Shown: positions 39,806 through 52,981 of the stretch, piece by piece | Numbering within the stretch: position 1 is the first letter of the stretch | Layout of the letters: every line of letters starts with the position of its first letter | The notes under the pieces: generated by a model | Told to the model about the DNA's origin: nothing | What the model saw: the letters and a program-made list of their open reading frames with translations, nothing else | Databases searched by the model: none | NCBI RefSeq assembly: GCF_014647595.1 | Contig: NZ_BMPM01000005.1 | Coordinates: forward strand, 62,001-126,000 | Direction of reading: 5' to 3' | Source: Paenarthrobacter histidinolovorans | GTDB lineage: Bacteria; Actinomycetota; Actinomycetes; Actinomycetales; Micrococcaceae | DNA: 64,000 nt | Program-made: the position numbers and the translations under genes

Positions 39806-40681
39806 CTAGGCTCCCATCCGCTCGACCAAGGACACTCCGCCGGGTACGTCGCCCGACAACAGGTCCGCCGCATATGCCGCAGCCCCGATGAAGCCGGCGT
39901 CCGGTCCAAGTTGGGCCAACCGCACCGGCGGGGTCTGTTCACGGCCGCGCTCAGCCAAAAGCGCCGCAAGCCTCTGCTCCGTGGGTTCCGTCAACGCGGC
40001 ACCAACTGCGCTGACACCGCCTCCGAGCAGGAACAGGTCCGGGTCCAGCAGCATGGCCACCTGGCTAAGGCCATAGCCCAACCAGTGGCCCAATTCAGCG
40101 AAGTCTTCCCCGGTGGCCGCAGGATGACCCAAGGCGGTTCCGCTGGCATAGCGGTCCAGGCAACCCCGGCTCCCGCAGCCGCACGGGCGGCCATCGGGGA
40201 CAACCGTCATGTGTCCTGCCTCCCCGGCCCATCCATGCGCCCCGGAAACAAGCTGGCCGTTGACCAGCAAGCCACCGCCGATGCCCGTGCCCACGGTCAG
40301 CATGGCCACGTTGTCCACACCCCGCGCCGCACCGAACCGGAACTCCGCCCACAGTGCGGCGTTGGCATCGTTGAGCACGACGGCGCGAACGTCCGCGCGT
40401 TCCTCGATCCAGTCAGCGAGCCGCGCCTCTTTGAGCGCAAGGTTTGCCGCATTGGCGACGCTGCGATGGTCGGTGGAAACATAACCGGGGACGGCGACGC
40501 CCACTGTTGTTCCGCCGTCGGCGTCCAACTCCCCCAGCAACTGCGCCACCGCGGCGGCAATACCCAGGGCCCCTTCGGGTGTTGCGAGCTGTTCGCGGGC
40601 AAGGATGTTTCCTTTGGAGTCGATCACACCGGCAGCGATTTTGGTCCCGCCGATGTCGATGCCCACCAGCCGCTGGCTCAT
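39806..40681 (-). CDS. ROK-family sugar kinase
   Basis: 291 residues. The ATP motif VGIDIGGTKIAAGVID opens the protein, followed by TVGTGIGGGLLVNGQL, a zinc-binding GHMTVVPDGRPCGCGSRGCLDRY, and GGGVSAVG. There is no HTH, so it is a kinase, not a regulator. It would phosphorylate the sugar released by the operon's fucosidase and sulfatase. Glucose, mannose, N-acetylglucosamine and allose are the known ROK substrates; the specificity is unproven. Overlaps GH29 by four bases. Confidence 0.92.
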   Translation of the reverse strand: MSQRLVGIDIGGTKIAAGVIDSKGNILAREQLATPEGALGIAAAVAQLLGELDADGGTTVGVAVPGYVSTDHRSVANAANLALKEARLADWIEERADVRAVVLNDANAALWAEFRFGAARGVDNVAMLTVGTGIGGGLLVNGQLVSGAHGWAGEAGHMTVVPDGRPCGCGSRGCLDRYASGTALGHPAATGEDFAELGHWLGYGLSQVAMLLDPDLFLLGGGVSAVGAALTEPTEQRLAALLAERGREQTPPVRLAQLGPDAGFIGAAAYAADLLSGDVPGGVSLVERMGA

Positions 40682-42012
40682 ACGGGGTGCCCCGGGGCGT
40701 CTGTGTGCGGAATGGCGAAAACAGCCACAGCCGAGTCCTTCAAGGTTTCCGGGATGACGAACTTGTCGCCCGCTTCACCTGCCCCAAGCCAGCGCCCTCC
40801 GGTGGTGGGAAGCGGAGCCGCCGGGAGTTCCGCGGCGGGATCCATCACCATCACATAGGTGGCGTGTTGGTCAACGGTCAGCGCGAGATCGTCCCGTCCG
40901 CCCAGGTCACCAACGAAAGGACGCGTACCGTAGATCGCTTCGCCGTTGACGTCCATCCAGGAACCCAGGCCTTCCAGCCTGTCACGGTAGATGGCGGGAA
41001 CCGTGCCATCAGCATTGAGCCCGATATTCAGCAGCAAGTTGCCGTTGCGGGACACCACAGACACCAGATGGCGGACAATCTCTGCGACGCTGAGGACATC
41101 GGCTTCAGTTTCGTTTCGGTTGACGCCAAAGGAGCGCCCCAAGCCCCGGCATGACTCCCAATCCTTGTCGGACAGTGAACCGATATCGCTGTATTCGCGC
41201 GTCAGATACCCGTGCGAGGGTACGCCCCAGCGATCGTTGACGATGCCCTCCGGCACTGTGGCGAGGTACTTGCGGAACAATGCGGCGACGCCGAAATCCG
41301 CGGCCGACTTGCCGGCGTCGGGCCATTCGATGTCGTTCCACAGGATGTCCGGGGCAAACCTGTCCACCAGTTCACTGACCTGATGGAAGGCGTAGCGGGC
41401 GAACTCCTCGTCGTTCCGGCGCAACCGGAAAACATCGGGATCGGAGTTGATGGGACGCAGATCGCTCACGTGCCAGTCCAACGCGCCGGAGAAGTAAGCC
41501 CCGAACTTCAGTCCGGCGTCGCGTGCTGCCGTTGCGAATTCCGCCAACAGGTCACGGCCCGGGCCACGCCGGACACTGTTGAAACCCGTCGTCTCCGTAC
41601 CCCACAGGCAGAAACCGTCGTGGTGCTTTGCCGTGGGCACAACGTAGCGAGCACCTGCCCGGCGAAACAGCTCAACACACTCGGAGGCGTCGAAAGACTC
41701 CGCCGTCCACAACTCCGCAAGATCCTCATAGCTGGTCCCGGATCCGAACGTCTCGCGTTGGTAGGCCTGGGCGCTGCTGCCGGAAATCCGAACCGTGTTG
41801 CCGTACCACTCGGCATATTTGTGGTCCCTGTAGGCGTCCTCCACAGGGGTGGGCGCATTACCTGTCTCGGCAAACGCGGGCACCGAATAGAGGCCCCAAT
41901 GGACAAAGATTCCGAATTTGGCGTCCTTAAGCCACTGCGGGAACGTCCAATCAGGGTATTCCGGTGCTTCCGCGCCGAAGTCGGGACCGACTCGGTCCTC
42001 AAAATAGAACAT
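40678..42012 (-). CDS. Alpha-L-fucosidase, GH29
   Basis: 444 residues from ATG 42012 (MFYFEDRVGP), with AAGG six bases upstream; TTG 42018 is an alternative. The TIM barrel shows AKFGIFVHWGLYSVPAF, YVVPTAKHHDGFCLW and the nucleophile motif APDILWNDIEWPDAGK with the WND aspartate. A C-terminal Ig-like domain follows, ending in a beta-rich tail. No signal peptide, so the enzyme is intracellular, on imported fucosides. The shorter C-terminus and context with a sulfatase suggest a sulfated or substituted fucoside. Confidence 0.92.
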   Translation of the reverse strand: MFYFEDRVGPDFGAEAPEYPDWTFPQWLKDAKFGIFVHWGLYSVPAFAETGNAPTPVEDAYRDHKYAEWYGNTVRISGSSAQAYQRETFGSGTSYEDLAELWTAESFDASECVELFRRAGARYVVPTAKHHDGFCLWGTETTGFNSVRRGPGRDLLAEFATAARDAGLKFGAYFSGALDWHVSDLRPINSDPDVFRLRRNDEEFARYAFHQVSELVDRFAPDILWNDIEWPDAGKSAADFGVAALFRKYLATVPEGIVNDRWGVPSHGYLTREYSDIGSLSDKDWESCRGLGRSFGVNRNETEADVLSVAEIVRHLVSVVSRNGNLLLNIGLNADGTVPAIYRDRLEGLGSWMDVNGEAIYGTRPFVGDLGGRDDLALTVDQHATYVMVMDPAAELPAAPLPTTGGRWLGAGEAGDKFVIPETLKDSAVAVFAIPHTDAPGHPV

Positions 42013-42042
42013 GTTCAACCTTGGAGGTAGAAGGAGTGCGGG

Positions 42043-42939
42043 CTAGCGGCCGGCCAAGCCGACTGTTGCGATGCCCTTGACCAGGTGCTTTTGGAGTGCG
42101 ACCACCAGCAGCAACGTGGGCAGGATGGCAATGACCGACGCTGCCATGACCAAATTCCAGGAGCTGCCGTGCTCGCCGAAGAAGGTCTGAAGACCCAGTG
42201 AGACGTTGCCAAGCTCATTGACGTCGTTGACCACAATCAGGGGCCACAGGAAGCTGTTCCAGAACGTGATGAACGTCCACACCGCCAATACCGCCAGCGA
42301 GGGCTTGGCCAGCGGCAGGATGATCCGGCTGAAGGTGCGCCATTGGCTGCATCCGTCCATCCTGGATGCCTCCACCAGCTCATACGGGATGTTCACGAAG
42401 AATTGGCGCAGCAGGAAGGCGCCGAAAGCGCCGAATGCCCAGGGCAGGATCAAAGCCTGCCACGTATTGATCCAGCCCAGCTTCTGCATGAGCAGGAACA
42501 TCGGAATGACAAGGACTTCCTGCGGGATCATCATGGTTGCCAGGTAGAGGAGCATGAATTTGTCGCGCCCACGCCAGCGGAGGATGCCGAAGCTGTAAGC
42601 CGCCAACGCGGACACTGCCACCACGATGACCGTGCCGATGATCGAGACCACCAGGCCGTTGAAGATGAAACGCAGGAATGGTGTGTACTCGAACACCTCC
42701 ACAAAGTTCTGCCACCGGAACTCCGCCCCGAACAGTGATGGCGGCTGGGCGAAGATTTCGCCGTTGGATTTGAAAGCGGAGAAGAACGTGAAGACGATCG
42801 GGAAGAGGAAGAGCAGGACCACCCCGGCCATCAGTACTTCGCTGACCAGTCTGAAAGGGCGGAACCGCGCTTTGGCATTCTTGCCGGGACGTTCTGCCGA
42901 AACAGCGGACGCCCGCGACGTTGTCTGGTTACTGGTCAT
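42043..42939 (-). CDS. Carbohydrate ABC transporter permease (MalG type)
   Basis: 298 residues, six membrane helices. The EAA loop is EASRMDGCSQWRTFSRIILPLAKP, the usual contact to the ATPase. It overlaps the other permease gene by 11 bases. No ATPase gene is present in the operon; such carbohydrate importers commonly share one MsiK-type ATPase encoded elsewhere. Confidence 0.95.
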   Translation of the reverse strand: MTSNQTTSRASAVSAERPGKNAKARFRPFRLVSEVLMAGVVLLFLFPIVFTFFSAFKSNGEIFAQPPSLFGAEFRWQNFVEVFEYTPFLRFIFNGLVVSIIGTVIVVAVSALAAYSFGILRWRGRDKFMLLYLATMMIPQEVLVIPMFLLMQKLGWINTWQALILPWAFGAFGAFLLRQFFVNIPYELVEASRMDGCSQWRTFSRIILPLAKPSLAVLAVWTFITFWNSFLWPLIVVNDVNELGNVSLGLQTFFGEHGSSWNLVMAASVIAILPTLLLVVALQKHLVKGIATVGLAGR

Positions 42940-43864
42940 AGTGGACCCATTTCTTTTGTCCCAGCCACTGGATCATTGTGACTACAAGAATCAAGGCGAA
43001 GAGGATGATGGCGGGCGCCGCTGCGGCACCAAGCTCGCCACCCTGGAAGGCCGTTTGGTAGACGTTCATGACCACTGTGACTGTTGACGTGCCCGGACCG
43101 CCTGCAGTGAGGACGAACGGTTCGGAAAACATCTGGAACGCCGAGATCATGGTCACTGTGGAGGCGAAGAAGATAGCCGGGGTCAGGAGGGGCAGCTTGA
43201 TCTTCAACAGCGCAGTGAGGCCCGATGCGCCGTCGAGCATGGAGGCGTCAAGAACGTCCTGCGGCAGTTGATCAATGGCGGCCGAGAAGATGAGCATGTT
43301 GTAGCCGAAGCCCTGCCACAGGATGACGACGACGACGGCGAGCATCGCCGTGCTGCTGTCGCCGAGCAGGTTGGGCATGTGGATGCCGAACATGGACTGC
43401 AGCGTTGAGTCCAGGATGCCGTCCGGCTGGTAGATCAGTTTCCAGATGACAGCCGTAGCCACGGACGGCGTCACCACCGGAAGGAAGAACAGGACCCGGT
43501 ACAACTTGGAGAACCGGCTGGTCGAAACCCAAAATGCCGTGGCTATGGTCAGAACCAGGTTGAGAGGCACCACGATGATGGTGAACAACAACGTGTTGAT
43601 GAGTGCTGCCGGGAATTGGCTTCCTGCCGCAAACAGATCCTTGTAGTTGTCCAGGCCAGCGAAGGTGACGTCACCATACGTAGGCCAATTGAAGAAGCTC
43701 GTGGCAATGGCCAGGAGCGTGGGCAGAAGGATGAAGAGCGTCATCCCCACGGCACTGGGGGTCAAAAAGCCCAGTGCCGCGCGGGAATCCGTCTTCTTCT
43801 TCCGTTGCACGCTCACCGGCTCCGGCGCTGGGCGCCGCGGCGGTGAAGCAATGGTGGCCGTCAA
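42929..43864 (-). CDS. Carbohydrate ABC transporter permease (MalF type)
   Basis: 311 residues with six helices after a charged N-terminus (VQRKKKTDSRAALGFLTPS). The EAA loop is DASMLDGASGLTALLKIKLPLLTP. It pairs with the MalG-type permease next to it, downstream of the solute-binding lipoprotein. It starts 49 bases after that gene. Confidence 0.95.
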   Translation of the reverse strand: MTATIASPPRRPAPEPVSVQRKKKTDSRAALGFLTPSAVGMTLFILLPTLLAIATSFFNWPTYGDVTFAGLDNYKDLFAAGSQFPAALINTLLFTIIVVPLNLVLTIATAFWVSTSRFSKLYRVLFFLPVVTPSVATAVIWKLIYQPDGILDSTLQSMFGIHMPNLLGDSSTAMLAVVVVILWQGFGYNMLIFSAAIDQLPQDVLDASMLDGASGLTALLKIKLPLLTPAIFFASTVTMISAFQMFSEPFVLTAGGPGTSTVTVVMNVYQTAFQGGELGAAAAPAIILFALILVVTMIQWLGQKKWVHYDQ

Positions 43865-43913
43865 GGTGATGCCTTTCTCGTCGGGCTCAGGGGTTCGGAA
43901 GAAACAGCGGACG

Positions 43914-45206
43914 CTACTTGGCGCCGCTCTCCTGGACGTTCTTGAGGGCTTCCTCCGGGGAGACCTTGTCCGTATAGGCCTGCTGGAACTGCTGGGCCAT
44001 CAGCTTGGTGACCTTGTCCCAGTTGTCGGTGCTGATGAATGGCACGGCCTTTTCCGAGGAAGCCTTCACTACTGCAGCCACCTGGTCCGAATAGCCCGGA
44101 TTGGTGGGGTCGATGTCGGTCTTCAGCCCCTGGATGAAGGCATCCGTGGCGGCCAACCGGGCAGGCTGATTGCCCGCTTTGGCGGAGGCGGCCTGTGACG
44201 CGGCGTCCGTCAGTACGCCAATGGCCTTGGCTGCGGCTTCCTTGTTCTTGCACGTCTTGGAGATGCCGAAGCCCGAGTTGGCTGAGAATGTACCGCCACC
44301 GTTCGTGCCCTGCGGCAGCGCCACCACTCCCACCTTGAAGCCGGCAGCGTCGGTGACGTTGCTCTTGATGTTCCACGTGCCATCCACAGCCATGGCCGTG
44401 TTGCCGGCAACAAACTGCTGTTCGCCCCAGGCAACGTCCGAGGAACTGGCGGGAACGGAGCTGATCTTCTCGTGCGTTGCCAGGCCGGAGTACCAGCCGA
44501 AGGCGTCGGTGACCTTTCCGTCATTCAGCTGCAGGGCGCCGTCGTCGGAAACCGGGCGGGCGCCGTTAAAGGCCAGCAGCTGGGAGTACATGTGGAGGTC
44601 CGAGAAAGACTCGCCGAAAGCGGGCTTACCCATGGAGGCTGAGACCTTTTTGCCCGCAGCGATGAATTCGTTAGTGGTCCAGCCGCTCTTGGGCTCGTCA
44701 ACACCAGCGGCCTTGAAAGCATCCTTGTTGTAATACATGACCATGGTGGAAAGGCCGTAGGGAAGTGCGTACTGCTTGTCCGAAGACTGCAAAGCCTTGA
44801 GTGCGCCGGGGCTCCACTCATCGGCCTTGAAGCCGGCGGCTTCGGCCAACGGGCCTTCCATGGGCTCCATGGCTTTGGCGAAAGCGGGAAGGCGCAAGGA
44901 CTGCATGCTCACGATGCAGGGCGCAGTACCGCCGGCAAGCTGGGACTGCAGCTTGGTGAAGTAATCGGCGAAGGGGGCGGTGGTCAGGTTTACCTTGATG
45001 TTCGGGTACTTTTCTGTGACCTGCGCGGCCAGTTCCTTCCAGGTTTTGTTGCCCTCTTCACCCTGGGACCAGAAGGACCAGTCGAGCGTGACGTCCGCGC
45101 TGGATGCGTCGGAGGAACCGGAGGTGCTGGAGGAACCGCAAGCAGCGGCGCCGAACATGACGGCGGTGCTGGCGACGACTGCGGCTAGCTTCGTTGCTAA
45201 TTTCAT
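43914..45206 (-). CDS. Sugar ABC transporter substrate-binding lipoprotein
   Basis: 430 residues from ATG 45206, with AAGGACG upstream; the frame further upstream is unsupported. A lipoprotein signal peptide ends in the lipobox FGAAACGSS, giving acylated C23. The mature part is a family-1 type periplasmic-binding fold (MalE-like), with NVTDAAGFKVGVVALPQGTN and later segments. It binds the oligosaccharide that the permeases take in. First gene of the operon, facing the ROK regulator. Long serine-rich linker after the lipobox (GSSSTSGSSDASSADV). Confidence 0.94.
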   Translation of the reverse strand: MKLATKLAAVVASTAVMFGAAACGSSSTSGSSDASSADVTLDWSFWSQGEEGNKTWKELAAQVTEKYPNIKVNLTTAPFADYFTKLQSQLAGGTAPCIVSMQSLRLPAFAKAMEPMEGPLAEAAGFKADEWSPGALKALQSSDKQYALPYGLSTMVMYYNKDAFKAAGVDEPKSGWTTNEFIAAGKKVSASMGKPAFGESFSDLHMYSQLLAFNGARPVSDDGALQLNDGKVTDAFGWYSGLATHEKISSVPASSSDVAWGEQQFVAGNTAMAVDGTWNIKSNVTDAAGFKVGVVALPQGTNGGGTFSANSGFGISKTCKNKEAAAKAIGVLTDAASQAASAKAGNQPARLAATDAFIQGLKTDIDPTNPGYSDQVAAVVKASSEKAVPFISTDNWDKVTKLMAQQFQQAYTDKVSPEEALKNVQESGAK

Positions 45207-45255
45207 TCTTCGTCCTTCTGATTTTGGTGGAGGGTGCAAGAACCCGGTCCTATAA

Positions 45256-45325: not shown

Positions 45326-46510
45326 GTGCTTCACATTTCGAACACTCGCCAACGTCCCCGTCCGACCCCTGCCAGTGAAGTCATCAGCCGCGCCGAGATC
45401 CTTGGACTGCTCGCTGAAAGGGGCCCGCTCAGCCGCGGTGAGATCGCCAAGCAACTCGGCCTCGGAGCTGCCACGGTCACAGCCCAGGTACGAAACCTGA
45501 TGGCTGAGGGCATGGTCCGCGACCTCCCGGCCGGCCAAAGCGCCGGAGCCGGACGGCCCAAGGTGCCGGTCCAGCTCGTGCCGGACGCCGCCGTTGTTAT
45601 CGGGCTGGGCATCACACCCCGCAGCGTGGTTGTGGTGTCCATGCTGCTGGACGGTGAGATCCTGGCGTCAGACGTCGTCCCCTTCAACCCTGATAAGGAG
45701 CCCGTGGGCCAGCTGGCCGCTGTGGTGACGAGGCAGATGCAAGACATGGCGCACCCCGGCCGCACCGTCGCAGTAGGCATCTCGGTCTCTGGCGCTGTGG
45801 ACGAGAACTCCTCTACAGTGATCATTTCCGCCACGCTCAATTGGGAGAACTTCGACCTCGGCCAACAGCTGCAGCAGGCACTGGACCTGCCCGTCTTCGT
45901 TTCCAACGATCTCTTTGCCTTGGCCACCCGGGAGATAAGTTTCGGCCTGGGCCGCCGGCACGACGACTTCCTGCTGTTGGGACTCGGGCCCGGCGTGGGC
46001 ATGGGTATCGTGAACCGCAGGTCGGTCTTCTACGGTCCCGGCGGCGCCTCCACCGAATTTGGCCACATGTCTGTGGATCCCGAGGGGCCGCGCTGCGTCT
46101 GTGGAAACCGAGGATGCCTTCAGGTCTACGCGGGGCTCAAGGAACTGCTCGCGGCAGCACCCGATCCCACCCCGGAAACGACGCTGGACGATCTTTCGGC
46201 CCGGGCCAGCGTTCCAGGCTCCCCCGCGAGTTCTTACTTGGACCGGACGGGGCGGATGCTGGGCCGTTCCCTCGGCGGCACGGTGAACCTGCTCGGCATC
46301 TCCACCATCATCGTCACAGGTGAGACGACGGCCTTGTGGGAACACCTCCGCAACGGCTTTGAGCAAGGGCTGCAGGAGACTGTGCTGCGCTTCCACCACC
46401 CCCTGACCATCACAGTCCGGGAGTGGACCGAAGCCGAAGGTGCCATCGGGGCGGCGGGCATGGCCCTGCACAATGCCGTGGTGCTGAACCGGTCAGACCC
46501 GGCGTCGTAG
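45326..46510 (+). CDS. ROK-family transcriptional repressor
   Basis: 394 residues from GTG 45326. The N-terminal HTH (LLAERGPLSRGEIAKQLGLGAATVTAQVRNLMAEG, residues about 28-62) is fused to the ROK sugar-binding domain, with VGISVSGAVDE, LGLGPGVGMGIV, and a zinc motif CVCGNRGCLQVY. It probably represses the divergent fucosidase/sulfatase operon and itself, with a sugar as inducer. A hairpin follows 21 bases after the stop. Confidence 0.93.
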   Translation: MLHISNTRQRPRPTPASEVISRAEILGLLAERGPLSRGEIAKQLGLGAATVTAQVRNLMAEGMVRDLPAGQSAGAGRPKVPVQLVPDAAVVIGLGITPRSVVVVSMLLDGEILASDVVPFNPDKEPVGQLAAVVTRQMQDMAHPGRTVAVGISVSGAVDENSSTVIISATLNWENFDLGQQLQQALDLPVFVSNDLFALATREISFGLGRRHDDFLLLGLGPGVGMGIVNRRSVFYGPGGASTEFGHMSVDPEGPRCVCGNRGCLQVYAGLKELLAAAPDPTPETTLDDLSARASVPGSPASSYLDRTGRMLGRSLGGTVNLLGISTIIVTGETTALWEHLRNGFEQGLQETVLRFHHPLTITVREWTEAEGAIGAAGMALHNAVVLNRSDPAS

Positions 46511-46590: not shown

Positions 46591-48354
46591 CTACTCGATG
46601 TGGGCAAGCACTGCGCCGGCGGTGACCACTCCGCCAGGTGCGGAGAGCACTTCCGAGAGGGTGCCCGCACGGTGTGCCGGGACCTGGGTTTCCATCTTCA
46701 TGGCTTCCAGAACCACAAGCGGGTCACCGGCAGCTACCTCAGCGCCGGGCTCCACGAGCCACTTGACCACCGTGCCGGACATGCTGGAAACGAGCGCGGA
46801 GTCGGCGGGCGAATCATTGGCACCGATGACAGAACCCGGCGCATCGGTCAGCCCGGCGACGGCGGGGAGGCCCTGTCCGGAGCGCGCCCAGCCGTCCAGC
46901 AGGTCGGCAGGCAGTCCCACGGCAAGTCGCTTGCCATCGACGTCCACGGTGATGGTCCGGCGTTCTCCGTTCGGAGCCACCGCGCTGTAGTCGGGGTCCA
47001 CGGGGATCTGGTCGGCGAAATCGGTCTCGATCCAACGGGTGTGCACCCGGAGTCCGGCCACCGAGGTGAAGTCGTCAGCCTCCAGGACCGCCCGGTGGAA
47101 GGGCAGCACCGTGGCCAGGCCTGTGATGCTGAATTCAGCGAGGGCCCTCCGAGCGCGGCGAAGTGCCTGCTGCCGGTCTGCCCCTGAGACGATCAGTTTC
47201 GCCAAGAGGGAATCGAACTGCGGCGGAACGTTGGACCCTGCGCGGACCCCGGTATCCACCCGGATCCCCGGTCCTGTGGGCACCTCGAAGAGCGCCACTG
47301 TGCCCGGCGAGGGCAGAAATCCACGGCCCACGTCTTCGGCGTTGATCCGGAATTCGAAGGAGTGCCCCTTGGCGACGGGGTCCTCGGACACACTCAGAGG
47401 AAGCCCGGCCGCCACGCGGAACTGCTCCTGCACGAGGTCGATCCCCGCGGTTTCCTCGGTGATGGGATGCTCCACCTGGAGTCGGGTATTGACCTCCAGG
47501 AACGCCACGGCGCCGTCCGCGGAAACCAGGAACTCCACCGTGCCGGCACCGTAGTAGCCGGCTTCGCGGATGATCGCCTTGGAGCCGTCGTGGATTTTCT
47601 GCCGCTGCGCATCACTGAGGAAGGGCGCGGGTGCCTCTTCCACGAGCTTTTGGTGGCGACGCTGGAGGGAGCAGTCGCGGGTACCAACCACAATGACATT
47701 GCCCAGCTTGTCCGCGATGATCTGCGCTTCCACGTGCCGGGGCCGGTCCAGGTACTGCTCCACGAAGCACTCACCACGACCGAATGCGGCGACGGCCTCA
47801 CGGACTGCTGAGTCGAAGGCTTCTTCCACTTCAGCGAGCTCGCGGACTACCTTGAGTCCTCGTCCGCCGCCACCGAAAGCAGCCTTGATGGCCATCGGAA
47901 GTCCGTGTTCCTCGGCAAAAACGCGTGCTTCTGCCGCAGAGGACACCGGTCCTTCGCTGCCTGCGACCAACGGCGCACCCGCCCGCACGGCGATTTCACG
48001 GGCAGTAATCTTGTTGCCCAACTGACGGATCGACTCCGGCGAGGGACCGATCCACTCCAGTCCGGCGTCGATCACTGCCTGTGCGAAGTCCGCGTTTTCG
48101 GAGAGGAAGCCGTATCCGGGGTGGACGGCGTCTGCGCCGGACTGGGCCGCAATGCCGAGCAGCTTCCCAATGCTCAGGTAGGTGTCAGCGGGGCTGTTTC
48201 CGTCCAGGCTGTAGGCTTCGTCGGCTAGGCTAACATGCATGGCGTCGGCGTCGATGTCGGCGTAGACCGCCACCGACGAAATGCCGGCGTCATCGCAGGC
48301 TCGGGCGACGCGGACGGCGATTTCGCCGCGGTTCGCGATCAGGACCTTACGCAT
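46591..48354 (-). CDS. Biotin carboxylase with C-terminal biotin carrier domain
   Basis: 587 residues from ATG 48354 ([17 protein letters not shown]); the frame continues upstream but is unsupported. ATP-grasp carboxylase ([29 protein letters not shown]) with biotinyl lysine K553 in LEAMKME at the end. Provides carboxyl-biotin; the matching carboxyltransferase is not obvious here. In this operon it accompanies PxpA and PxpBC, genes commonly found beside an AccC in actinobacteria, suggesting a biotin-dependent step linked to 5-oxoproline or urea-type metabolism. This last point is inference. Confidence 0.93.
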
Positions 48355-48361
48355 CAAATAC

Positions 48362-50011
48362 TCACTTCTCTGGGGTTTTGCTGAAGTCTGGGGAATCGTG
48401 GATGAACCGGAATCGGATCCGTCCGCCGATGGGGACCTGTGCAGCGCGGTCCAGGTGCTCGTCACGCACCACGCCGATCACGGGATAGCCTCCGGTGATC
48501 GGATGGTCCGCCAGAAACAGGACAGGGAGTCCGGCGGGTGGAATCTGGAGCGCACCCGCCATGGTGCCCTCGCTGGGAAGCTCGCCTTCGCGGATCCGCT
48601 TCAACGGGGTGCCGTCCAGTCGCATGCCCACACGGTTGGACTGCGGTGTAACCAGCCAGTCCTGGCTCGTGAGGGAGTCCAGCGCTGCCTGGTCGAACCA
48701 GTCGGCGCGTGGGCCGGGCACGACGTCCAGCACCGTGACGTCCTCCCCTGGAAATCCGGGCTGCAATTCAGGGCTGCCCACCGCGGTCGATTCGGTGGCG
48801 TCACCGGCAGGGAGCTCTTGGCCGATGACCAGCGGGGCAGGCCCAATGCCGGACATCGTGTCGGCCGAACGGCTCCCCAGTACCTCTGGTACATCCACTC
48901 CGCCACGCATCGCCACATAGTTCCGGAAACCCGACTCGGGAGCGCCCAAGGTGAGGGCCTCACCGTCGAGCAGTGCGAAAGGTGCAGCCATGGGGACGGT
49001 CCGCCGGGAGCCCGGCTGGGGTTCGCCGCCGTCATCGTCGGAATCGACCCACGACGGCGACTGGATGGTTAGCGTCGTCGGCGCACCGGTAACGGCAATC
49101 ACCTGGTCGCCCACGGCTTCCACAGTCAGGCCGCCATTGACGGTCTCGATGGCCGCCGCCGAAGCGCTGTTTCCCACCAGGCGGTTGGCCCTTCGGAGCG
49201 ACGCCCTGTCCAAGGCACCGGCTGCGGAGACGCCGAGCGGGCCGAATCCGCGACGGCCGAGATCCTCTATGAGGCTCTGGGCACCTGGGTTGAGAATCCG
49301 CAGGCCCGGTCCCGTGTGGTGGTCCGGATCAGTCTGGGAATCTTGGGCTGCCGCGGTAACAACCTCGCGGACAGCCCGGTACTGGACCCGATCACCGGGC
49401 CTCACCAGGGCTGGCTGCGCGCGGTCCAGATCCCACATCCTGGCTCCGGTCCGGCCAATCAGCTGCCACCCACCTGGTGATCGACGCGGGTACACGGCGG
49501 AGTACTGTCCACCGAGGGCCACCGATCCTGCGGGGACTGCAGTGCGCGGGGACGAGCGTCGAGGAACCGTTAGGGCTTCGTTTTCGCCCACCATGTACCC
49601 AAACCCGGGTGCGAAGCCCGCGAAAGCAACGGTCCAGATCTGGCCCGTGTGGGCCGCAATGACGCCGTCCATGCTCAGTCCGGTCAGCTCCGCGACGTCG
49701 GCGAGGTCGTCGCCGTCGTACACGGTATCGATGACCACCAGCCCGGAGTCAGTGACCTCCGGAATGGTGAGTTCCAACTCGAGCAGCTGGGCGCCGATGG
49801 CGCGGGTGGCCGCTGCGGACTCGCCCACCACCATGACTGTTTCAGCTGCGGCGAGTACGTCCACCTGGCCCGGAAGCGGGGACTTGTACAGCATGTCCTG
49901 GAGGGCAAGGACATCCTGCAGCCCGTCCAGCTCGGCCAGGACAGCGCGGGTCCCAACGGGCCGGACGGAGAGTACTTTTTTCGCGGTGGTGGTGTGCATT
50001 GCGGTTTCCAT
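48362..50011 (-). CDS. 5-oxoprolinase PxpB-PxpC fusion (KipI-KipA)
   Basis: 549 residues. Residues 1-220 are the KipI/PxpB part ([43 protein letters not shown]) and 250-545 the KipA/PxpC part ([41 protein letters not shown]), joined by a linker. With PxpA they form the bacterial ATP-dependent 5-oxoprolinase, opening 5-oxoproline to glutamate. The KipA domain also occurs in urea amidolyases with a biotin-dependent carboxylase; the biotin carboxylase next door is notable for that reason. ATG 49999 is an alternative start. Confidence 0.92.
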
Positions 50012-50017
50012 GACTTG

Positions 50018-51367
50018 TTACACTGCCGGCTGGGACTGCGCCGCCTGCAACAAGCGCTCTTCCTCTTCAGGCTCCGGATCGCGACCCAGGAGCATGCCCA
50101 CGATGGTGACAACGGATGCCACCAGTATGTAAACAGCAATCAGGTACCAGCCGTGATTCGCCGCACCGTAGAGCGCTGTGAAAATGATGGGCGCAACCGC
50201 TCCACCAATCACACCGGCCAAGGTGTAAGCCAGCGAACTGCCCGCATAACGGAGCCTCGCCGGGAACTGCTCGGTGATGAAAGCAGCCTGGGGACCGTAC
50301 ATGAAGGCGTGCAATGCCAGGCCAATGATGGTGCCGATGGTCAGCATGAGCACGGACCTGCCTTGGATCATCAGGAAGAACAGCGGGATGAACGCAGCGG
50401 TAGCGGCTGCGGCGATGCCGTAAACCCAACGACGGTTGAAGCGGTCAGTCAGGGCGCCGGCCAGCGGGATCAGGAAGAGCTGGAAAGCTGAGCCGATCAG
50501 GATGGCGGACAGCACGTTGCCTGTGGTCATGCCCAATTCCTTGGTGGCGTACACGGCAACGAACACGGTAAAGAGGGCGTAAAGGATGTCGGGGCAAACC
50601 CGGGAGAGGGCGGCTGCCACCAGGGCCTTGGGCTGCTGGGTGAAGACTTCCTTGATGGGGGCCTTGGGGCGATCGCCTTGGGCCTGGATGGCTTTGAACA
50701 CCGGTGTTTCTTCGAGCTTGAGGCGGATGACCAGGCCGAACACCACAAGGAGTGCGGAGGCGAGGAAGGCTACGCGCCAACCCCAGGAGAGGAAAGCGTC
50801 GTTGCTCAGGGTTGCAGCAAGAATTGCGAGGACGCCGTTGGCCATGAGGTTGCCTGCGGGCGGGCCGATCTGAGCTGCCGAGGACCAGAATCCGCGCTTG
50901 TTGGGATCGCCGAATTCGCTGGACAGCAGTACCGCTCCTCCCCACTCACCACCTACACCGATGCCCTGGGCGAGCCGCAGGAGGACCAGGATGGTGGGAG
51001 CCGCAACACCGATCACGGAGTAATCGGGCAGCGCACCGATGAGGACTGTGGCCACGCCAATCAGGACCAAGGTGAATACGAGGACGTACTTGCGCCCGAC
51101 CTTGTCGCCGAGACGGCCGAAGATGACACCACCGATCGGTCGTGCAAGGTAACCGACGGCAAACGCCGAGAAGGAGAGGAGCAGCGCAACAAATTCGTCG
51201 TTGCCCGGGAAGAAGATCTTCGGGAACACCAGGGCCGAAGCCACGGAGTAGATGGCAAAGTCGTAGTACTCCAGCGAGGTGCCGGTCAAGCTGGCTATGT
51301 ACGCCTTGAGTGCGCCGGGCGGTGGCTTCCTTGTCACTGCCTTGGATGCGTTGTTGGTGCTGGTCAT
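50018..51367 (-). CDS. MHS-family MFS transporter (metabolite:H+ symporter)
   Basis: 449 residues, twelve membrane helices. The MHS signature is SLTGTSLEYYDFAIYSVASALVF at the start, with FGRLGDKVGRKYVLVFTL (A-motif) after helix 2 and RLAQGIGVGGEWGGAVLL in helix 4. MHS proteins carry organic acids such as shikimate or 2-oxoglutarate, and osmolytes. Here 5-oxoproline or a related acid is the likely cargo, given operon neighbours. It starts 48 bases after pxpA and ends seven before the fusion gene. Confidence 0.93.
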   Translation of the reverse strand: MTSTNNASKAVTRKPPPGALKAYIASLTGTSLEYYDFAIYSVASALVFPKIFFPGNDEFVALLLSFSAFAVGYLARPIGGVIFGRLGDKVGRKYVLVFTLVLIGVATVLIGALPDYSVIGVAAPTILVLLRLAQGIGVGGEWGGAVLLSSEFGDPNKRGFWSSAAQIGPPAGNLMANGVLAILAATLSNDAFLSWGWRVAFLASALLVVFGLVIRLKLEETPVFKAIQAQGDRPKAPIKEVFTQQPKALVAAALSRVCPDILYALFTVFVAVYATKELGMTTGNVLSAILIGSAFQLFLIPLAGALTDRFNRRWVYGIAAAATAAFIPLFFLMIQGRSVLMLTIGTIIGLALHAFMYGPQAAFITEQFPARLRYAGSSLAYTLAGVIGGAVAPIIFTALYGAANHGWYLIAVYILVASVVTIVGMLLGRDPEPEEEERLLQAAQSQPAV

Positions 51368-51414
51368 GATGTCCTCCGGGGGGATGAGGGATGGTGCGGG
51401 GCGCCCGGGACGGG

Positions 51415-52173
51415 CTAGAGGAACGAGCCGACGGGAACGCCGGCCTCGCCCAGTGCGGACTTCACTGCGGTGGCCATTGCCACGGCACCGGGTGAGTCAC
51501 CATGTACGCAGATGCTCTCCGCGCGGAGTTTCAGGATGGAGCCGTCGATGGTCCTGACGGATTGCTCAGTAGCCATCCGAAGGACGTGTTCGGCCACTTC
51601 GGCCGGATCATGCAGTACGGCACCCGGCTGGGACCGGGCAACGAGGGTTCCGTCAGGGTTGTAAGCGCGGTCAGCAAACGCTTCGGACACGCCCCTAAGG
51701 CCTGCCTCCTCAGCCAGACGCAGGACCTCCGAGCCGGGAAGGCCGAGAATCGGGAGGTTGGGGTCCACCGATTTCACAGCTTCCACTACGGCGCGGGCCT
51801 GGTCAGTGTGCTTGACGATCGCGTTGTAGAGGCCGCCATGCGGTTTCACGTACTGAACGCGGGCACCGGAAACAGCGGCCAGCGCCTGCAGCGCACCTAT
51901 CTGGTACACGACGTCGTCTGCCAACTCCAAGGGGTCAACATCCATGAAGCGGCGGCCGAATCCAGCGAGGTCGCGGTAGCCGACATGGGCGCCAATAACG
52001 ACGCCGGCCTCAACCGCCTTTGCGCACGTGCTGCGGATGACGCTGGGGTCGCCGGCGTGGAATCCACAAGCAACGTTGGCACTGGAGACGGACTCAAACA
52101 TGGCAGCGTCGTCGCCGAGCGTCCAGCGCCCGAAGGACTCGCCGACGTCGCTGTTCAGATCGATGGTTGCCAT
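51415..52173 (-). CDS. pxpA: 5-oxoprolinase subunit PxpA (LamB/YcsF family)
   Basis: 252 residues. N-terminus [21 protein letters not shown] with the conserved N-x-D-x-G-E, [32 protein letters not shown] and [12 protein letters not shown], all LamB/YcsF signatures. The protein is the third component of the ATP-dependent 5-oxoprolinase. First gene of the minus-strand operon, facing the GntR regulator. Confidence 0.93.
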
Positions 52174-52223
52174 GGTGTGATCCCTGCCTCGTGATGTGCG
52201 TTACATCCAGCATGCACCAATCT

Positions 52224-52246
52224 GCTGGATTGTTCAACAATCCAGC
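52224..52246. promoter_or_regulatory. 23-bp perfect dyad, probable GntR/FCD operator
   Basis: GCTGGATTGTT at 52224-52234 and its exact complement at 52236-52246 around a single C, between pxpA and the GntR gene. FCD-type GntR proteins bind such short-spaced dyads. It sits 50 bases from pxpA and 36 from the regulator start. Confidence 0.75.
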
Positions 52247-52282: not shown

Positions 52283-52981
52283 ATGGCCAGTGCAGATCAG
52301 GAATTAGGCGAACACGCTGGCTTTGATGGTGCACGGGCGCGGATGCGCCTCAGGGTCCCATCCGTGGCGGAGCGCGTTGCCGAGGAACTCCGCTACCAAC
52401 TGGCTGAGGGCTTTCTGGTTCCCGGCGCCAAACTCACCGAGGCCACCATTGCCGAGGATCTTGGCGTCTCCCGCAACACGGTCCGGGAGGCCTTCGCCGA
52501 GCTCGCAGCTGAGCGGCTGCTCCTCCGCCAACCCAACAAGGGCGTGTTCGTAGCCACGCTCGAGGCCGGCGACATCCACGATGTCTACACGGTCCGTCGG
52601 GCCATCGAGGTCAGCTCCATCCGCGCAGGCGGTTCACCGGAGCGCGTGGCCGCCGTCAGGGCCGCCGTCGACGAGGGAAAACGGGCCGCAGCCGCCAATG
52701 ACAACGAAGGTCTGGGCAGCGCCAACCAGCATTTCCACGGGGCAATCGTCGCCCTGGCCGAGAGCAACCGGCTGAACACGATCATGGCTCAGATCCTGGC
52801 CGAGATGCGGCTCTATTTCCATAAGGCCACTTTGAACGCGCACTTCTACAGCGATTGGCTGAAGGAAAATGAGCAGATCTGCTCAGCTCTGGAAGCCGGT
52901 GAACTGGAACGTGCGGGGGACTTGCTCCTGGCCTATCTCAACCGTTCAGAACAGCAGCAGGCTGCCATCCACGGCGAGTAA
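52283..52981 (+). CDS. GntR-family regulator (FCD domain)
   Basis: 232 residues from ATG 52283 with TTTTGGAG upstream; the longer frame is unsupported. Winged HTH at about 20-85 (VAERVAEELRYQLAEGFLVPGAKLTEATIAEDLGVSRNTVREAFAEL), then an FCD sensor domain (DVYTVRRAIEVSSIRAGG, NQHFHGAIVALAESNRLN, with metal-binding D and H residues). It probably represses the divergent pxpA operon and itself until its organic-acid inducer appears. Confidence 0.93.
   Translation: MASADQELGEHAGFDGARARMRLRVPSVAERVAEELRYQLAEGFLVPGAKLTEATIAEDLGVSRNTVREAFAELAAERLLLRQPNKGVFVATLEAGDIHDVYTVRRAIEVSSIRAGGSPERVAAVRAAVDEGKRAAAANDNEGLGSANQHFHGAIVALAESNRLNTIMAQILAEMRLYFHKATLNAHFYSDWLKENEQICSALEAGELERAGDLLLAYLNRSEQQQAAIHGE

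Follow-up and report, generated by a model that had tools for sequence, protein, structure and literature searches.

The PxpTABC system of Corynebacterium glutamicum is regulated by PxpR, which is controlled by 5-oxoproline and whose binding-site core is backed by reporter mutations in the parts of PMC13274462 devoted to it. The urea amidolyase of Kluyveromyces lactis (structures 5i8i and 3va7), as presented in sections of PMC5770610, contains a KipA-KipI carboxyltransferase fed by a biotin carboxylase (BC) and a biotin carboxyl carrier protein (BCCP). In Mycobacterium smegmatis, MSMEG_0435 and MSMEG_0436 are unfused homologues of PxpC and PxpB (46% identical) that occur with AccA3, and a six-gene operon of Staphylococcus aureus includes pxpB, pxpC, pxpA, accB and accC according to passages of PMC11315280. 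The subject of this report is a minus-strand operon of Paenarthrobacter histidinolovorans that has features of each. It lies in a stretch of 64,000 nucleotides, here called the window (contig NZ_BMPM01000005.1, positions 62,001 to 126,000), and encodes PxpA, a major facilitator superfamily (MFS) transporter, a PxpB-PxpC (KipI-KipA) fusion and a BC-BCCP protein. The operon probably encodes a biotin-dependent 5-oxoprolinase for 5-oxoproline catabolism, in which the fusion would carry out a carboxylation step.

The likeness to C. glutamicum, as far as that source describes it, extends to the PxpA, PxpB and PxpC domains, a divergent GntR gene and a 13-bp operator core at a similar distance; here, however, PxpB and PxpC are fused, an MFS protein replaces the NRAMP-like PxpT, and the operon has its own BC-BCCP. 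Relative to the urea amidolyase of PMC5770610, the BC-BCCP is a separate protein, PxpA replaces allophanate hydrolase, and Arg151 of the fusion stands in place of Lys1605. The S. aureus operon shares BC and carrier genes alongside PxpABC, but in the passages concerned no fusion is described and accBC is ascribed to fatty acid synthesis. The proposal is based on the observed genes, their conserved linkage, a distinct BC lineage and the operator sequence, together with a predicted fold.

Operon organization and the likely partner of the biotin carboxylase

The genes follow one another in the order pxpA, MFS transporter, fusion and BC-BCCP, with intergenic gaps of 47, 6 and 7 bp, all on the minus strand. 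pxpA (51415-52173) encodes a LamB/YcsF protein, a lactam ring hydrolase (PF03746, 345.7 bits; NF003814, 380.8 bits against a cut-off of 226), whose solved homologues are 1v6t, 2dfa, 2xu2 and 1xw8. The transporter (50018-51367) is metabolite:H+ symporter-like (PF07690, PF00083; TIGR00883 at 388 bits, below the cut-off of 443) and is a candidate 5-oxoproline importer. The fusion (48362-50011; 549 aa), which is the proposed carboxyltransferase, has PF02682 at aa 15-202 and PF02626 at aa 259-535. It scores 245 bits with TIGR00724, above the cut-off of 230.2, and falls below the NCBIfam equivalog cut-offs for PxpB (TIGR00370, 123.8 against 145.55) and PxpC (NF045499, 171.8 against 500); it is therefore counted as a PxpBC variant and not as a standard equivalog. 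Its closest named relatives among the best 80 of 595 matching stretches are from Paenarthrobacter and Arthrobacter.

The BC-BCCP gene (46591-48354; 587 aa) encodes an AccA-type biotin carboxylase with a carrier domain (PF00289, PF02786, PF02785, PF00364). Its open reading frame (ORF) as listed has 624 aa from GTG 48465 and overlaps the fusion gene, but the start is likely ATG 48354, 7 bp past the fusion stop codon, because homology to solved AccA3 begins there. The codon of the lysine expected to be biotinylated (K590 of the 624-aa ORF) is at 46696-46698, minus strand, within a LEAMKMET motif that aligns with the same motif of AccA3; this motif and the Pfam BC and BCCP domains mark the product as a biotin carboxylase with a predicted biotinylation site. 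The Pfam domains and gene order bear out the preliminary description of this DNA as a PxpA operon with a PxpB-PxpC fusion and a biotin carboxylase, to which the MFS transporter is added.

No PF01039-type carboxyltransferase is present in the operon. The genome has four BCs, namely that of the window, an AccA3-like protein, MCC alpha and pyruvate carboxylase (the last two named from size and neighbours), and only two PF01039 carboxyltransferases, both elsewhere. One adjoins MCC alpha, and the other, ~9 kb from the AccA3-like gene, is presumably the partner of that BC. Since the other BCs and both PF01039 carboxyltransferases appear to be paired, this leaves the fusion as the one evident partner of the window BC.

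An AlphaFold model of the fusion, made from a 65-row alignment, has a predicted local distance difference test (pLDDT) score of 90.9; a single-sequence fold with pLDDT 33 was discarded. The model matches 3mml_A (Z 40.0, 287 residues, 1.8 A), TTHA0988 (3oep; Z 39.3, 476 residues, 2.6 A) and E. coli YbgJK (Z 36.2). The match to the K. lactis urea amidolyase chain 5i8i_B (Z 34.1, 301 residues, 2.3 A) covers the PxpC half only, and that half matches the urea carboxylase fold with Z 25.3. The PxpB half was aligned to urea carboxylase by sequence only, and matches with Z below ~13, among them arginine repressor, were disregarded. The model indicates a KipA/KipI-type carboxyltransferase fold, which is a known kind of component of biotin-dependent carboxylases.

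The mycobacterial proteins offer a precedent. By its title, PDB entry 9yx5 shows MSMEG_0435-MSMEG_0436 bound to the long chain acyl-CoA carboxylase complex of M. smegmatis. The window BC has its top match in the AccA3 of this entry, and both halves of the fusion likewise have their best sequence matches there. The loci in the set closest to MSMEG_0435 (L163 at 79% and L165 at 84% identity) lack both PxpA and BC over 12 kb, which fits the borrowing of AccA3.

Linkage and lineage of the fusion and the biotin carboxylase

Conservation was read from 80 fused-PxpBC loci of Actinomycetota and Proteobacteria; these are the best 80 of the 595 stretches, so that close relatives are over-represented. 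In 73 of the 80 the fusion is immediately followed by a same-strand BC, with a median of 55 bp between match edges. A family-level sample of 30 loci, the window's included, has BC within 1.5-kb flanks in 23 (one only a divergent match) and none in seven. Among seven plasmid records, five have an annotated BC beside the fusion; the BC of the Arthrobacter record is unannotated and was found by tblastn, and the Tsukamurella record has none.

The pairing recurs in other arrangements. The order PxpB-PxpC-BCCP-BC-hydro-lyase-PxpA is found at L147, L149 and L151, and the order PxpA-BC-PxpB-PxpC at L183 and L184. Two Rhizobium plasmids carry BC beside PxpB/PxpC in two further orders, and a haloarchaeal (Haladaptatus) plasmid does so in another, with BC on the opposite strand. 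The unfused PxpB/PxpC of L147, L149, L151 and of the Rhizobium and Haladaptatus plasmids are accompanied by BC and a separate small BCCP-like gene. The BCCP motif, under the pattern used, is absent from five urea-carboxylase-like BC-linked loci, and no BC was found on Paenibacillus and Salinivibrio plasmids with PxpB/PxpC.

That the BC adjoins the fusion by chance or through common regulation only, with no biochemical link, is very improbable. It would explain why BC is missing from seven of the 80 fused loci (two at contig ends) and from the 1.5-kb flanks of seven of the 30 family-level loci, but it conflicts with the same-strand BC in the other 73 and with the recurrence of the pair in unrelated gene orders, where the BCs belong to another lineage, and on the Rhizobium and haloarchaeal plasmids.

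Among solved sequences the window BC is closest to an acyl-CoA carboxylase alpha3 subunit (AccA3), with a collinear alignment from residue 2, and the AccA3-like protein of its own genome is 55.6% identical to it. BC domains of 300 aa or more (78 in all) were placed in a quick maximum-likelihood tree with Shimodaira-Hasegawa approximate likelihood ratio test (SH-aLRT) supports and no bootstrap. Seventeen of them come from AccA3-like proteins: that of the genome itself and 16 others chosen by length (~600 aa and more) and taken as 2-kb stretches. These 17 form their own branch (SH-aLRT 98) with no pxp-linked BC inside; all 34 fused-operon BC-BCCPs lie outside it. The window BC lies outside this housekeeping branch, with no AccD-type partner nearby, and inside a branch of 14 pxp-linked BCs (97). 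Fused-type BC-BCCPs and the AccA3-like proteins share a common stem (99), and the BCs of split operons are placed in a different part of the tree from the fused type.

Fusion and BC distances correlate (r = 0.835, n = 72 of the 80 loci, with 0 of 2000 permutations as high), a relation that the common ancestry of the species also yields. A PxpC tree was calculated from 80 of 136 rows, the fused rows having been thinned by hand and one row of <180 aa dropped. On it the BC label needs 11 changes, below all 500 shuffles (mean 26.8), and BC-linked groups occupy three separated parts. BC has thus probably become associated with PxpB/PxpC on more than one occasion, and this repeated association is regarded as the strongest indication that the two work together.

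Two features of individual loci are recorded here. L052 and L110 (Tsukamurella) have the fused PxpBC, an MFS gene, GntR and an exact operator, with neither PxpA nor BC nearby. On a Klebsiella plasmid (L053), a complete GntR/NRAMP/PxpA/hydro-lyase/PxpBC/BC cassette is located between two IS1 transposase genes.

Operator, neighbouring genes and substrate

A GntR-FCD regulator gene, PxpR-like by its Pfam domains (PF00392, PF07729), is divergent from the operon (52283-52981, plus strand); its ORF is listed from 52196, and the likely start is ATG 52283. At 52229-52241, without strand, is a PxpR-type operator core, ATTGTTCAACAAT, an exact match to the core of the C. glutamicum PxpR site. Its centre is 62 bp before the pxpA start codon, compared with 65 bp before pxpT in C. 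glutamicum. The core occurs once in the 4.65-Mb genome, where a reversed control pattern has 0 copies, and judged by this sequence the operon may be under 5-oxoproline-responsive control.

The exact palindrome ATTGTTNAACAAT is present in 55 of the 80 best-matching loci and its reversed pattern in none; ~0.003 sites would be expected by chance in the 1.15 Mb concerned. All 55 loci have a copy <400 bp before an operon gene. Eleven of the remaining 25 have an upstream copy at one or two mismatches, and 14, some having little upstream sequence, are without one. In six loci (L076, L078, L079, L082, L083 and L090), a second operator copy lies within 160 bp of an NRAMP-like gene beside a 'putative hydro-lyase' gene, which suggests a wider 5-oxoproline regulon.

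PxpA is present in 78 of the 80 loci. A gene for pyroglutamyl peptidase (Pcp), an enzyme that liberates 5-oxoproline, lies inside the operon in four of them and also at L055. The transporter slot is occupied by MFS, NRAMP-like or DUF969/DUF979 genes (the window; L097, L125, L134), and this exchange makes the DUF969/DUF979 proteins, like the MFS protein of the window, candidate 5-oxoproline importers. Given the operator, the GntR gene, PxpA and the pyroglutamyl peptidase of some relatives, 5-oxoproline stays the likely substrate.

It is improbable that a different lactam, a ureide or an amide is the compound carboxylated and 5-oxoproline at most a side substrate. The PxpC half does share its fold with urea carboxylase, and related records from plasmids carry the annotation urea amidolyase family. 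Nevertheless the operator is that of a 5-oxoproline sensor, PxpA and Pcp are the neighbours, and the urea carboxylase lysine is replaced. TIGR02712 (urea carboxylase; cut-off 1303.85) is far from reached by the fusion (148.1 bits) or the BC-BCCP (519.1 bits), and no allophanate hydrolase was found among the six window proteins scanned. The preliminary description had the fusion carboxylating a substrate with the adjacent BC, in an activity other than 5-oxoproline breakdown. A carboxyltransferase role is indeed probable in view of the linkage, the BC lineage, the absence of a free PF01039 protein and the solved complex of homologues; an activity other than 5-oxoproline breakdown, or one on urea or amides, is not supported, given the operator, GntR, PxpA, Pcp and the change from Lys to Arg. 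The starting point of that description, a need of PxpABC for ATP only, derives from published papers.

Proposed reaction, residue comparison and other loci

In the proposed reaction, the BC domain would use ATP and bicarbonate to carboxylate biotin bound to the BCCP domain, and the fusion would pass the carboxyl group to the 5-oxoproline lactam, most simply to the ring nitrogen. PxpA would take the carboxylated form and hydrolyse the activated ring, and the resulting N-carboxyglutamate would shed CO2 to give glutamate. The MFS protein would import 5-oxoproline, and the GntR regulator, with 5-oxoproline bound, would leave the operator. The conversion of 5-oxoproline to glutamate is uphill (Keq ~0.035), so that coupling to ATP is needed; carboxybiotin would provide it, as in urea amidolyase. 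A carboxylase and hydrolase logic of this kind would also account for the carboxyltransferase homology of PxpC.

The alternative is that the fusion phosphorylates 5-oxoproline with ATP, while the BC-BCCP is an accessory alpha subunit of an acyl-CoA or keto-acid carboxylase that serves glutamate carbon or growth. Phosphorylation is the published view of PxpABC, but the alternative is rated here as rather unlikely. In its favour, the same conserved residues also occur in operons without a BC; growth of C. glutamicum on 5-oxoproline requires pxpTABC, for which the main text of PMC13274462 names no BC gene and does not use the word 'carboxylase'; and the S. aureus authors, in the passages of PMC11315280 concerned, treat accBC of the pxp operon as fatty acid synthesis genes. 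Against it, the operon has no PF01039-type carboxyltransferase, nor is any unpaired elsewhere in the genome. The BC lineage also follows the fusion, and by the title of 9yx5 solved homologues of the fusion bind an AccA3-containing carboxylase.

Lys1605 is the likely general base of urea carboxylase according to sections of PMC5770610. Its position, found by counting in the 5i8i alignment, corresponds in an alignment of 135 PxpB-type domains to Arg151 of the fusion (49559-49561, minus strand). This column is Lys in all ten urea carboxylase rows. The 96 BC-linked rows have Arg in 91 cases and Lys in five; 24 of the 25 BC-free rows have Arg and the other a gap; and of four contig-cut rows three have Arg and one has Lys. 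The lysine was rejected as a marker of BC linkage, since only a small BC-linked clade has it and the others have Arg. That clade (L150, L152, L159, L183, L184) is deep, has PxpA and BC as neighbours and retains the urea carboxylase lysine; its substrate may differ.

A comparison of PxpC with urea amidolyase residues had been suggested as a check. Many residues are common: 34 PxpC and 10 PxpB positions are conserved in all three sets of rows (BC-linked, BC-free and urea carboxylase), while 11 PxpC and 19 PxpB positions (that of Lys1605 included) are conserved with another residue in urea carboxylase. Its other outcome, that no position sets BC-linked apart from BC-free PxpBC, comes from a scan of 88 BC-linked against 23 BC-free rows (two contig-cut) at thresholds of 85% and 75%, with five divergent BC-free, three accBC-type and six urea-carboxylase-like rows set aside. 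It follows that carboxybiotin is used by both kinds or by neither; in the latter case the BC would have another task.

Several observations weigh against a biotin-dependent reaction. Because Arg151 replaces Lys1605, carboxyl transfer cannot copy urea carboxylase exactly, and because no PxpB or PxpC column separated the two kinds of rows in the above scan, sequence alone does not show use of carboxybiotin by the fusion. Seven of the 80 fused loci are without BC, two of which (L087 and L105) stop at a contig edge; one BC-free locus, L071, is 70% identical to the window and carries the operator. Three of the 55 exact-operator loci are BC-free. A phylum sample of 25 loci is small, with 19 usable after removal of four of urea carboxylase type and two cut by contig ends, and 12 of the 19 have no BC within 4 kb. 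In one of the seven with BC (L156), it is divergently oriented and lies 1.6 kb away from the cluster; 15 further loci outside this sample were hand-picked from earlier listings and are non-random. The pxp-linked BCs form several branches and not one clade, with the AccA3-like branch among them as drawn, and gene neighbourhoods were read for only a minority of the 17 AccA3-like proteins. Common ancestry, as noted, also yields the correlation of distances, and the title of 9yx5 gives binding but neither role nor substrate. Finally, passages of published papers describe phosphorylation of 5-oxoproline with ATP by PxpB/PxpC as assumed, and in part of another paper the pair is described as hydrolysing ATP; in those passages the activation of 5-oxoproline thus stands in print as an assumption.

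The recurrence of the carboxylase-fusion pair in many bacteria and one archaeon suggests that the ring may be opened through prior attachment of CO2 and not through phosphorylation. If so, growth on pyroglutamate would require biotin and bicarbonate, and the accBC-like genes in pxp operons of S. aureus, Rhizobium and the haloarchaeon would be reassigned to the scavenging of nitrogen and carbon instead of fatty acid synthesis. The linkage of pxp and BC genes is already visible in databases and is in print for S. aureus. No proposal of biotin-dependent 5-oxoproline cleavage was found in the open-licence PMC literature searched; the 2017 paper naming PxpABC and any paper on 9yx5, which are outside that scope, may discuss it.

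A general version, in which all PxpABC systems are biotin-dependent and BC-less operons borrow a housekeeping BC and carrier, as the mycobacterial AccA3 complex may show, is doubtful. Were it true, 5-oxoprolinase would need ATP because biotin carboxylase does. Some BC is present in 20 of 21 genomes with PxpC, the exception being 62% complete, and this near-universality makes the survey uninformative on the general version. Two urea-carboxylase-type carboxyltransferase ORFs in relatives of the same class, at L148 and L157 (705 and 793 aa from stop to stop), lack an EAMKM-type motif, and the 12-kb stretches read around them gave no BC match; their products may borrow a housekeeping BC-BCCP.

The P. 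histidinolovorans genome has two further PxpA loci, with no BC in the stretches read and no PxpR-type operator. At L015 (contig C7, 6200-7770), PxpA is followed by a short PxpC-like ORF, and no PxpB was found in the 14-kb stretch; the pair is possibly a decayed or divergent copy. Beyond the pxp operon, to which they are unrelated, a ROK-family regulator (45326-46510 of the window) adjoins what we take to be a sugar ABC transporter and a glycoside hydrolase-like ORF (40678-45239).

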